Assembly (NCBI RefSeq): GCF_018905915.1
Contig: NZ_CP064782.1
Span: 2,294,001 to 2,358,000 of the forward strand
Source: Azospira inquinata
GTDB taxonomy: Bacteria > Pseudomonadota > Gammaproteobacteria > Burkholderiales > Rhodocyclaceae
Direction of reading: 5' to 3'
Length of the DNA: 64,000 nt
In this document: piece after piece, positions 35,004-46,397 of the stretch
Layout of the letters: each line of letters begins with the position of its first letter
Numbering within the stretch: position 1 is the stretch's first letter
Notes under the pieces: generated by a model
Databases searched by the model: none
Told to the model about the DNA's origin: nothing
The model's input: only the letters and a program-made list of their open reading frames with translations
Program-made: the position numbers and the translations under genes

Positions 35004-35213
35004 ATGGATATTCTCTATTTGCTGGTCCCCGTTTCCCTGCTGTTGGTGGTGGCCATTGCGGTGGTGTTCTGGTGGTCGGTGAAAAGCGGCCAGTTTGATG
35101 ACCTGGAAGGCCCGGCCTACCGGCTGATGATGGAGGACGATGACCGGCCCGCGGAAGACAACAGCCCGGTCAAAAAGGAATCGGGTGCTCCCGTAGCTCA
35201 TAAAACAAAATAA
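35004..35213 (+). CDS. ccoS: CcoS, cbb3 oxidase maturation protein
   Basis: A 69-residue single-helix protein, MDILYLLVPVSLLLVVAIAV followed by FWWSVKSGQFDDLEGPAYRLMMEDD. This is the CcoS/FixS signature with the GQFDDLEGPA motif. It is needed for insertion of heme and copper into CcoN in studied bacteria. It lies directly behind ccoI and ends eight bases before an FNR box. Confidence 0.95.
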   Translation: MDILYLLVPVSLLLVVAIAVVFWWSVKSGQFDDLEGPAYRLMMEDDDRPAEDNSPVKKESGAPVAHKTK

Positions 35214-35220
35214 TGAGGGT

Positions 35221-35262
35221 TTGATCTGGGTCAAAAGCCCGGGTTCGGCCTTTCGCAATAAT
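35221..35262 (+). promoter_or_regulatory. FNR-dependent promoter behind ccoS with no coding gene downstream
   Basis: FNR box TTGAT-CTGG-GTCAA (35221-35234) and -10 AATAAT (35257-35262). The box centre to -10 distance is exactly that of a class II FNR promoter (centre at -41.5 from a start near 35269), the same geometry as at hemN in this window. Confidence 0.75.
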
Positions 35263-35268
35263 CTCATC

Positions 35269-35366
35269 CGTTGAATTCATTGCGGTGCCTCGTTTTGAGG
35301 GGCCGTGTTGAGCCGATTGTTTCTCTGTTGGGGTTGGGGTGCGTCTCGTTACGCACCCTTTTTTTT
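35269..35366 (+). ncRNA. Candidate FNR-activated small RNA between ccoS and ccoN
   Basis: Predicted transcript of about 98 nt from the FNR promoter to an intrinsic terminator. It begins with an imperfect hairpin (35283-35305, CGGTGCCTC/GAGGGGCCG around GTTTT). A ~30-base U/G-rich unpaired linker (TGTTGAGCCGATTGTTTCTC...) follows, and the RNA ends with an 8-bp stem plus eight U residues. No open frame with a ribosome binding site fits inside. The architecture and FNR control recall FnrS of enterobacteria, but no sequence relation is claimed. The alternative is that the hairpin is only a distant terminator for ccoIS. Confidence 0.6.
35337..35366 (+). terminator. Strong intrinsic terminator (end of candidate sRNA / ccoIS)
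   Basis: GGGTGCGT-CTCGTT-ACGCACCC then eight T residues, 124 bases downstream of the ccoS stop. Confidence 0.93.
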
Positions 35367-35575
35367 GCCTTGTCCCCGGAGCCTGAATCCGGGGTGTCCC
35401 GCCAGGCTCCCATGCCCCCCGTATCAGACCCGACAAAAAAATCCGACCTCTCCGTTTCCGAATCGGCTTCGGAAAAAGCCTTCTCCTAACCCCCTGAAAC
35501 AGTGTGGCAAAATGCCTCTTGCGGAGAATGTCAATTGGCCTTTTGGCTAGGATTGACGGGCTTTTTGGGGCAGGG

Positions 35576-35617
35576 TTGATCTATGTCAAAAAGGGGGGGG
35601 CTCGGCTACAATAGCAT
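35576..35617 (+). promoter_or_regulatory. FNR-dependent promoter of ccoNOQP
   Basis: FNR box TTGAT-CTAT-GTCAA (35576-35589). A -10 TAGCAT (35612-35617) sits at the class II distance; TACAAT (35607-35612) is an alternative. The implied start near 35620 gives a leader of about 80 bases before ccoN. Confidence 0.85.
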
Positions 35618-35700
35618 CCTCGCGATGCTGCCTAGTGGGTTTGTAGTACTTGGGAGGCAGCATATAAGAGATTTTCTTTTCCTAGTCGAGAGGTGGGTCC

Positions 35701-37128
35701 ATGTCGGAAACGCAATCCACATACAACTACAAAGTAGTACGGCAATTTTCAATAATGGCCGTTGTTTGGGGCATTGTTGGCATGCTGGTTGGTGTCATCA
35801 TTGCTTCTCAATTGGTTTGGCCGGAGCTTAATTTCGCGCCTTTCCTCACTTATGGACGTCTGCGTCCGCTGCACACCAACGCGGTGATTTTTGCGTTCGG
35901 TGGCTGCGCGCTGATGGGGACTTCCTATTACGTCGTACAACGTACCTGCCACACCCGGCTGTTTGCGGGTGGCCTGGCCGCCTTCACCTTCTGGGGTTGG
36001 CAGCTGGTAATTCTGCTGGCGGCTCTTTCCTTGCCCATGGGTTTCACCACGGCCAAGGAATACGCCGAACTGGAATGGCCGATTGATATCCTGATCACCC
36101 TGGTGTGGGTTTCCTACGCCGTGGTCTTCTTCGGTACCATCGCCATCCGTAAGGTCAGCCACATTTATGTGGCCAACTGGTTCTACGGTGCCTTCATCAT
36201 CGCTGTGGCTCTGCTGCACGTGGTGAACAGTGCTGAAATCCCCGTCACCCTGACCAAGTCCTACTCCGCCTACGCGGGTGTGCAGGATGCTATGGTGCAG
36301 TGGTGGTACGGCCACAACGCGGTGGGCTTCTTCCTGACCGCCGGCTTCCTGGGCATGATGTACTACTTCGTGCCGAAGCAAGCAGGCCGTCCGGTGTATT
36401 CCTACCGTCTGTCCGTGGTGCACTTCTGGGCGTTGATCTTCACCTACATGTGGGCGGGTCCTCACCATCTGCACTACACCGCTCTGCCTGACTGGACCCA
36501 GTCCGTGGGTATGGTTTTCTCCCTGATCCTGTTGGCTCCCTCCTGGGGCGGCATGATCAACGGCATCATGACCCTGTCCGGCGCCTGGAACAAACTGCGG
36601 GATGACCCCATCCTGAAGTTCCTCATCACCTCCCTGTCCTTCTACGGTATGTCCACCTTCGAAGGCCCCATGATGTCCGTGAAGTCCGTGAATGCCCTGT
36701 CCCACTACACTGACTGGACGGTCGGCCACGTTCACTCCGGCGCTCTGGGTTGGGTGGCCATGGTGTCCATTGGCTCCATCTACTACATGATCCCCCGGCT
36801 GTTTGGCCAAAAGGAAATGTATAGCACCAAGCTGGTGACGGCCCACTTCTGGATCGCCACCATCGGTGTGGTGTTGTATATCGCTTCCATGTGGATTGCC
36901 GGTGTGATGCAAGGTCTGATGTGGCGCGCCGTGAATCCGGACGGGACCCTGACCTACAGCTTCGTTGAAGCGGTGAAGGCCTCCTACCCGTTCTGGACCA
37001 TCCGTCTGGTGGGCGGCATCATGTTCCTGAGCGGTATGGTTCTGATGTTCTTCAACGTGCTGAAGACCATTGCCGGCAACAAGGCTGTGGATGCCCCGGT
37101 TCTGGCTCCTGCTGCGCATCACGCCTAA
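35701..37128 (+). CDS. ccoN: cbb3-type cytochrome c oxidase subunit I
   Basis: Catalytic subunit of the high-affinity cbb3 terminal oxidase; it reduces O2 at a heme b3-CuB centre and pumps protons. The 475-residue protein has twelve predicted helices and family-specific histidine motifs: [40 protein letters not shown] and [14 protein letters not shown]. It opens the ccoNOQP operon behind an FNR promoter, so expression should rise when oxygen falls. GAGAGGTGGG precedes the ATG. The codon mix is somewhat less GC-biased than in neighbouring genes, as often seen for highly expressed genes. Confidence 0.98.
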
Positions 37129-40325: not shown

Positions 40326-40367
40326 ACTTTAGGCTGCCGATGCTACGTCAGTTTTGACGGATGTCAA
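40326..40367 (-). promoter_or_regulatory. FNR-dependent promoter of uspA (divergent from the beta-CASP gene)
   Basis: Perfect dyad TTGAC-GGAT-GTCAA (40354-40367). On the minus strand TAAAGT (40331-40326) is at the exact class II -10 distance, giving a start near 40319, 23 bases before the uspA ATG. The site could also affect the gene at 40417. Confidence 0.75.
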
Positions 40368-41971: not shown

Positions 41972-42011
41972 TTGATCTATTTCAAACCAAATCAAGAGGA
42001 TTGTGTTATCT
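41972..42011 (+). promoter_or_regulatory. FNR-type promoter of the nitronate-monooxygenase-like gene
   Basis: FNR box TTGAT-CTAT-TTCAA (41972-41985), then an extended -10-like TGTGTTATCT ending at 42011. The spacing is within two bases of the class II arrangement. Confidence 0.7.
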
Positions 42012-45539: not shown

Positions 45540-46281
45540 AGCTGGCCTGATGGGTCATGAGCCGTTTCAGGCCCGGGGTATTGAGAATGCGGATGTGCTT
45601 TTGCTGGACGCTGATCAGGCCTTCTTCCTGGAAGCGGGAAAAGGCCCGGCTTACGGTTTCCAACTTGAGGCCCAGATAGCTGCCGATTTCCTCGCGGGTC
45701 ATACGCAGGTAGAACTCGGCGGGGGAATAGCCCCGGGCAGTAAAACGCTGGGAAAGGTTGAGCAGGAAGGCGGCCAGCCGCTCTTCCGCCCGCATGGTGC
45801 CCAACAGCATCATGACCCCGTGATCCCGGACAATTTCCCGGCTCATGACTTTGTGGAAATGGTGCTGGAGGGAAACCACTTCCCGGGACAAACCTTCCAG
45901 GCGAGGGTAGGGGATAATGCAGACTTCGCTGTCTTCCAGGGCCACCGCGTTACAGGAGTGGGCTTCCGTGCTGATGCCGTCCAGCCCCAGCAGTTCCCCG
46001 GCCATTTGAAAGCCGGTGACCTGATCCCGGCCGTCTTCTAGGATGACGTCGGTTTTGAAAAAGCCGCTGCGAATGGCATAAATCGCATCAAAAACCTCGC
46101 CGGCCCGATAAAGGTGGTCGCCGCGCTTGATTTTACGACGTGCACTCACTAGCTCGTCTAGCTTGGCCATCTCCGCCTCATTCAGCCCCAGGGGCAGGCA
46201 GAGCTCTTGCAGGTTACAGTTGGAGCAGGCTGTCTTGATGATGGACAACGTGATTTCTTTGGCGTTGCTGTTCAACGGCAT
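45538..46281 (-). CDS. fnr: Fnr, oxygen-sensing 4Fe-4S transcription regulator
   Basis: A 247-residue Crp/Fnr protein. Cluster ligands Cys19, Cys22, Cys28 (CSNCNLQELC) and Cys110 (AHSCNAVAL) fit an oxygen-labile [4Fe-4S] Fnr. The C-terminal helix-turn-helix (EEIGSYLGLKLETVSRAFSRFQEEGLI) carries the E-x-x-S-R recognition pattern that reads TTGAT-n4-ATCAA. GAGGA supports the ATG at 46281; an upstream in-frame ATG at 46320 is less likely. It is the probable master regulator of the boxes mapped in this window. The box upstream serves hemN; no matching -10 faces fnr. Confidence 0.96.
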   Translation of the reverse strand: MPLNSNAKEITLSIIKTACSNCNLQELCLPLGLNEAEMAKLDELVSARRKIKRGDHLYRAGEVFDAIYAIRSGFFKTDVILEDGRDQVTGFQMAGELLGLDGISTEAHSCNAVALEDSEVCIIPYPRLEGLSREVVSLQHHFHKVMSREIVRDHGVMMLLGTMRAEERLAAFLLNLSQRFTARGYSPAEFYLRMTREEIGSYLGLKLETVSRAFSRFQEEGLISVQQKHIRILNTPGLKRLMTHQAS

Positions 46282-46355: not shown

Positions 46356-46397
46356 TTGATCCAGGTCAACGTGAAATAATTCACCCACCACCATAAT
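46356..46397 (+). promoter_or_regulatory. FNR-dependent promoter of hemN
   Basis: FNR box TTGAT-CCAG-GTCAA (46356-46369) and -10 CATAAT (46392-46397) exactly at the class II spacing, predicting a start near 46404 and a leader of about 20 bases. Confidence 0.88.

Follow-up and report, generated by a model that had tools for sequence, protein, structure and literature searches.

In Azospira inquinata, the interval between ccoS and ccoN probably encodes a trans-acting, base-pairing small RNA (sRNA) of the Rhodocyclaceae sensu lato; we put the probability of this full explanation at roughly 0.78. The interval was analyzed within a window of 64,000 nt, by which we mean the whole stretch of DNA under analysis. 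An FNR-type promoter, a 23-nt core and an intrinsic terminator are conserved together in relatives, and sites complementary to the core are enriched at translation starts elsewhere in their genomes. The best reading is that of a family of FNR-activated sRNAs that would repress genes of aerobic life and would have converged with FnrS of Escherichia coli; the family would be new, FNR-activated sRNAs as a kind being already known. A sequence-only reading had earlier pointed to this place. Its observation is confirmed, beyond the strength that it claimed, and our analysis adds a conserved, putative pairing core and a predicted regulon overlapping that of E. coli FnrS, with no sign of common descent.

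Bacteria of the Azoarcus, Thauera and Dechloromonas type are common denitrifiers and pollutant degraders at the oxic-anoxic border. In a literature search covering mostly papers readable without subscription, no oxygen- or FNR-controlled sRNA was found for these genera. The available part of a systems study of Aromatoleum aromaticum says only that small RNAs may take part (PMC9765128). The sRNA family supplies a ready list of targets and would clearly illustrate how an sRNA regulon can evolve convergently.

In the mechanism that we propose, FNR would bind the box at -41.5 when oxygen falls and turn on transcription of an RNA of ~98 nt that would end at the terminator. The core, GUYUCUCUGUUGGGGUUGGGG, is placed just 5′ of the terminator stem and reaches into it. 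Its pairing partners would be mRNA stretches of the CCCCAACCCCAACAGAGARAC type that overlap or immediately precede the ribosome-binding site, and the pairing would block translation, probably with Hfq. The predicted targets belong to aerobic life and to redox and cofactor supply: sodB, folE2 and a gene for a wrbA-like quinone oxidoreductase in several genera, as well as cydA, ahpC-like, ferritin-like and other genes in single genomes.

Anatomy of the ccoS-ccoN interval

The region under study is the intergenic stretch between ccoS and ccoN, on the plus strand (Table 1).

Table 1. Features of the sRNA locus and its likely activator, in window coordinates
Feature	Position	Strand	Basis or remark
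ccoS, upstream neighbor	35004..35213	+	NCBIfam TIGR00847 above cut-off; stop codon 35211-35213
FNR box TTGATCTGGGTCAA	35221..35234	+	sequence; class II position (-41.5)
-10 element AATAAT	35257..35262	+	sequence
Predicted sRNA transcript, 98 nt	35269..35366	+	start inferred from class II geometry
5′ hairpin	35276..35312	+	fold; sequence varies among relatives
Conserved core TTGTTTCTCTGTTGGGGTTGGGG, proposed base-pairing region	35317..35339	+	23 nt; alignment
Intrinsic terminator, stem-loop and eight T	35336..35366	+	sequence; pairing conserved
Separate FNR box of ccoN (35576-35589) and -10 TACAAT (35607-35612)	35576..35612	+	sequence
ccoN, downstream neighbor	35701..37128	+	NCBIfam TIGR00780 above cut-off
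fnr, likely activator	45541..46281	-	NCBIfam NF008365 (Fnr) 254.4 bits, cut-off 228

The sequence-only reading had described an FNR box just after the ccoS stop, followed by an AATAAT -10 element at class II distance, and both are there. The box TTGATCTGGGTCAA begins at the eighth base past the stop codon, and the predicted start at 35269 lies 41.5 bp past its center. By the geometry of its sequence, this is an FNR class II promoter of the FnrS type, to which FNR is predicted to bind. The intrinsic terminator with eight U residues is present as well, with a stem of 9 pairs instead of the 8 bp claimed and a loop of 6 (35336-35359, the eight T being 35359-35366). The 23-nt core at 35317-35339 reads TTGTYTCTCTGTTGGGGTTGGGG.

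For the predicted 98-nt RNA the folding energy is -38.6 kcal/mol; shuffled sequences average -26.0 (z -4.2), and none of 200 is as stable. As had been described, it has one 5′ hairpin, which is strong in the fold. The linker behind it had been called single-stranded, which holds in part: its mean unpaired fraction is 0.47 in minimum-energy folds, in which it is at least 70% unpaired in 5 of 95 loci and the core is partly paired.

The likely activator is encoded in the same window, ~10 kb from the sRNA. The N-terminal cysteines of the fnr product lie in CSNCNLQELC. An FNR box at 46356-46369, 75 nt ahead of the fnr start, suggests autoregulation. Two more TTGA-N6-TCAA boxes, at 40354-40367 and 41972-41985, are near genes that look universal-stress-like and metallo-beta-lactamase-like by eye. 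hfq is present in the window's genome.

Conservation of promoter, core and terminator

We searched the window's genome and 60 relatives (36 members of the family and 24 genomes of other families) by BLAST with 35215-35370 as the query. At E<0.005, core and terminator were found in 28 of the 61 genomes, that is, the window's own and 27 of the 36 family members, and in none of the 24 genomes of other families, where the best E value was 0.013. The matches cover the last third of the query. In all 28 loci CTCTGTTGGGGTT precedes a run of T, and most of them are flanked by ccoS and ccoN motifs. When they were aligned, TCTCTGTTGGGGTT was invariant in 28 of 28, with variation in the 5′ part of the RNA and in the loop of the terminator. 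In the terminator, 99.0% of cells over the 28 loci are paired, and two of seven pairs show a change of both partners, each in a single sequence.

An 18-mer scan of species genomes gave at least 119 stretches, of which 80 loci were retrieved. The core followed by a T run was present in 77 of them; the other three (L062, L064 and L117) were discarded as chance matches. According to the record titles among the matches listed, the 77 loci come from Azoarcus, Thauera, Zoogloea, Dechloromonas, Azonexus, Accumulibacter, Denitromonas, Aromatoleum, Uliginosibacterium, Oryzomicrobium, Tepidiphilus and others, and in part from unassigned beta-, gamma- and proteobacterial MAGs. Core and terminator recur in at least 105 examined loci (100 distinct), from Rhodocyclales and unassigned proteobacterial genomes. 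The predicted transcript has a median length of 95 nt in relatives (range 64-147, n=95).

A covariance search, a kind of check that had been proposed, covered 300 genomes of the order and returned strong matches in 10 of them, all in the window's family. Eight of the 300 genomes, outside the family, gave 25-33 bits (33.1 at most); no FNR box was found in the 250 nt before any of these eight matches, and they were taken as ordinary terminators. Within the family, the exact 15-mer of the core is absent from 14 of 61 genomes, and ccoN was found in 11 of these 14. Among their printed ccoN upstream stretches, divergent versions of the sRNA with an FNR box were recognized by eye in L263, L264 and L269, and none was seen in the others.

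The promoter was followed in the 99 of 100 distinct loci with at least 60 nt upstream, by searching for TTGA-N6-TCAA up to 160 nt before the core. An FNR box was found in 95 of the 99 loci, compared with 6 of 4177 background stretches of the same DNA. At an offset of 35-37 from the start of the box, 84 of the 95 loci have a -10-like hexamer, and the other offsets tested gave 0-4% each. The four loci with no box within 160 nt are L016, L026, L102 and L128; in L026 and L128 an FNR box is present farther from the core. In L016, a gene ending VGVGYRF (ompW-looking by eye) is inserted between ccoS and the core, and with no FNR box before the core, the sRNA of this locus may be a 3′ UTR product.

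Box, -10 element, core and terminator are therefore conserved together, and not the terminator alone, the outcome that the sequence-only reading had named as speaking against it. Among the parts of this unit, the 5′ hairpin region alone lacks sequence conservation. An FNR-type promoter of its own, conserved together with a terminator, is what would be expected of an FNR-activated trans-acting sRNA. These data support the interpretation of the interval as an FNR-type sRNA gene, whose expression is predicted.

Complementary sites at translation starts

Twenty side matches of the BLAST search were fetched, and several were on the complementary strand, just 5′ of genes. We turned this complementarity into a test. 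Across 61 family genomes, the 15-mer CCCCAACCCCAACVG occurs at 61 sites, of which 47 fall in sRNA genes (one each in 47 genomes) and 14 elsewhere. The latter, which are complementary to 15 core nucleotides, were judged by an automatic rule that required, within 65 nt, a start codon having an SD motif and opening a frame of 100 codons; 12 of the 14 sit just before such a start. By the same rule, the opposite strand of the same sites gave 0 of 14, and a scrambled 15-mer, the scrambles preserving base counts but not dinucleotides, gave 0 of 13. One of the 12 start sites (L201, with a GTG frame) is doubtful. The two misses are L039, which falls within the opening codons of a pirin-like gene, and L205, which follows an ahpC-like gene; both genes were named by eye. 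The sites precede a wrbA-like quinone oxidoreductase gene in two genera, cydA, a phasin gene and others named by eye. Complementary sites at the starts of genes elsewhere are a property that an FNR-activated trans-acting sRNA would be expected to have.

A short-seed pattern (seed, SD, ATG) had 12 matches in the window's genome (G000) and 24 in a genome of the same genus (G002). Seven of the former and 13 of the latter, picked by eye as likely starts, were fetched, and 19 of the 20 gave an open frame. The genes include those for SodB, FolE2, AhpC-like and ferritin-like proteins, as well as nif and other genes. From these ~19 candidate genes of two genomes, sodB and folE2 were picked because FnrS targets sodB and folE, so that the overlap with FnrS is biased by this choice. 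Complementary stretches are found on or adjoining the ribosome-binding sites of sodB, folE2 and the wrbA-like gene in several genera.

We found 60 sodB genes in 59 of the 61 genomes and located the start in 57, leaving out G065, G015 and G017. The 46 starts from the 45 genomes with the exact core had a mean z of -2.05 against shuffled cores, with 27 at p<=0.05, and the mean was unchanged without the discovery genome. The 11 starts from genomes without the exact core had a mean z of -1.00, with 4 of 11 at p<=0.05; the two groups differed with a p of 0.010 in a one-sided rank test. The tests of this section use nearly one genome per genus, with statistics that ignore phylogeny. For 235 generic genes, taken from 77 loci around the sRNA and including repeated cco genes, the mean z was 0.04, and 18 were at p<=0.05. 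The wrbA-like gene, whose start was located in 20 of 21 loci, had a mean z of -1.91 in 15 exact-core genomes and of -1.33 in 5 without the exact core, so that sodB and the wrbA-like gene lean towards pairing also in genomes of the latter kind. With a mean z of 0.16, the ccoN start, used as a control and located in 21 of 28 loci, showed no complementarity.

Perfect complements of at least 9 nt were present at 8 of the 46 sodB starts from exact-core genomes, at 0 of 11 from genomes without the exact core and at 1 of 235 generic starts. For folE2, 7 of 30 starts had such a complement, six in exact-core genomes and one in G088, which has a strong folE2 site without having the exact core. Shuffled cores reached this length on average at 1.7% of sodB and 1.9% of folE2 starts. 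The folE2 loci come from 30 of 57 genomes with a match; many of the 30 starts show no complementary site, and their positions, set by alignment, are still off for some partial alignments. The best case for sodB is G023, where CCCCCAACCCCGACAGAGAGAC forms a continuous complement of 22 nt (one G-U) over the gene's own ribosome-binding site, and the wrbA-like gene has perfect sites of at least 15 nt in two genera. In the window's genome, pairing at sodB is moderate (z -1.69, p 0.06), and the wrbA-like gene offers the strongest site seen there. Complementarity at sodB and folE2 is thus present and enriched, and repression by pairing is predicted.

The starts of folE2 seem to use two parts of the core according to genus, CCCCCAACCCC in some and ACAGAGAA in others (L389, L390 and L395 versus L392, L400 and L404). 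In G002, a core-like TTTTCTCTGTTGGAGTTGGGGG with no FNR box (L258, C1:1878201-1878281) is found ~0.8 kb before the folE2 start at C1:1879006.

The genome-wide count of the pattern CCCCAAC+SD+ATG showed no excess, with 485 matches against 670 for a scrambled seed that, by its look, is common inside genes. When this count was contrasted between exact-core genomes and the others, the result was rejected as uninformative: it is confounded because the scrambled seed tracks the same genomes. In G020, CCCCAACAGGAGCAAGAGCATG occurs six times, probably as a repeated element, which inflates the seed count of that genome.

Alternative explanations and known small RNAs

It is quite unlikely, in our view, that the interval is a conserved 3′ UTR with the terminator of the operon ending with ccoS and has no RNA activity of its own. 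The ccoS motif is indeed upstream of the sRNA in 92 of the 99 loci with enough DNA (105 scanned), and the terminator would end that operon, but a terminator does not need the invariant 14-nt stretch 5′ of its stem, and the loci keep a class II FNR promoter in the space separating ccoS from the core. The interval could also be a cis-acting leader or attenuator of ccoN, given that the ccoN motif follows the sRNA in 87 of the 92 loci with enough DNA. However, ccoN has a separate FNR promoter after the terminator, which argues that the interval is no ccoN leader; of the 95 loci long enough to be scored, 85 have a second FNR box at 40-400 nt past the start of the core. Together with the 5 of 92 loci that have no ccoN motif within 1 kb behind the sRNA, and the absence of complementarity at the ccoN start, this makes a leader function very unlikely.

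The main activity of an FNR-activated sRNA might instead be titration of a protein, either Hfq or a CsrA-like factor, and not pairing with these targets. The core is invariant, rich in G and U and not wholly unpaired, and the broad short-seed count is without excess, all of which would fit titration; the long complementary sites at starts, found on the mRNA strand only (12/14 versus 0/14), point to pairing and make titration as the main activity unlikely. A short protein or a dual-function RNA is extremely unlikely. The sequence-only reading saw neither a ribosome-binding site nor a credible open reading frame. The transcript has no ATG, in agreement with that claim, but a GTG at 35305 follows GAGGGG, which qualifies it. 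The GTG frame has no stop before the terminator and is thus not a credible gene, and the 5′ part of the RNA is conserved neither in sequence nor in length. We therefore retain the base-pairing sRNA as the preferred explanation.

The sequence-only reading had likened the locus to FnrS, and the likeness stands for the logic of the system, that is, the class II promoter and the predicted targets sodB and folE2, but not for descent. FnrS, which is among the Rfam families, had no match up to E=5 in an Rfam search of 35100-35750. Direct local alignment to E. coli FnrS recovered only the T run, and without it 286 of 500 shuffles were as good. Sequence or structure homology to the FnrS family was thus found neither by Rfam nor by local alignment. 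The folE2 product here is Pfam GCHY-1, and FolE2 (GCHY-1) is a different enzyme family from E. coli FolE. E. coli FnrS has a class II FNR promoter (PMC3032703), and its targets in a benchmark table are cydD, folE, folX, gpmA, maeA, metE, sodA, sodB and yobA (PMC4086111). The present sRNA is similar in its promoter, in being a short RNA with a terminator and in having sodB and folE2 among its predicted targets; in contrast to FnrS, it sits at the cbb3 oxidase genes, and there is no detectable sequence similarity. We see an even chance that Rhodocyclales independently evolved an FnrS-like sRNA beside the genes of a high-affinity oxidase, and that it came to share with E. coli FnrS the control of central genes, namely sodB, one for a folate GTP cyclohydrolase and one for cytochrome bd. 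If so, the loss of oxygen would repeatedly select the same post-transcriptional programme.

The Neisseria sRNA FnrS/AniS is FNR induced and consists of a 5′ stem-loop, an unstructured middle and a terminator (PMC3032703). The build of the present sRNA is similar, the two being likened by description only, whereas its covariance model scores strongly only in the window's family among the 300 genomes of the order. No Rfam family reached its gathering score anywhere in the window. A weak match to SorY (RF02651) at 35300-35366, with 21.7 bits against a gathering score of 111, was taken as chance, as were three other weak matches in 35100-35750.

The BTSR family RF02278 (S17 in Bordetella, bdhR1 in Burkholderia) has a conserved stretch 5′ of the terminator, which pairs at ribosome-binding sites. 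RNase E trims S17, leaving a 3′ part that carries the pairing sites, and a counterpart of S17 is described in Aromatoleum (PMC11722255). The present RNA resembles this family as a betaproteobacterial sRNA with a conserved stretch 5′ of the terminator. No match to RF02278 was found in 35100-35750, and the window's genome has one copy elsewhere, at C1:1023055-1023120 (locus L217; 62.5 bits, cut-off 50), with a different core. The presence of this separate copy indicates that the RNA between ccoS and ccoN belongs to a different family. Conservation confined to its 3′ half may find an explanation in S17, as the 5′ part might here be trimmed off in a similar way. TTTGTCTC is common to the RF02278 copy of the window's genome and to many relatives of the present sRNA.
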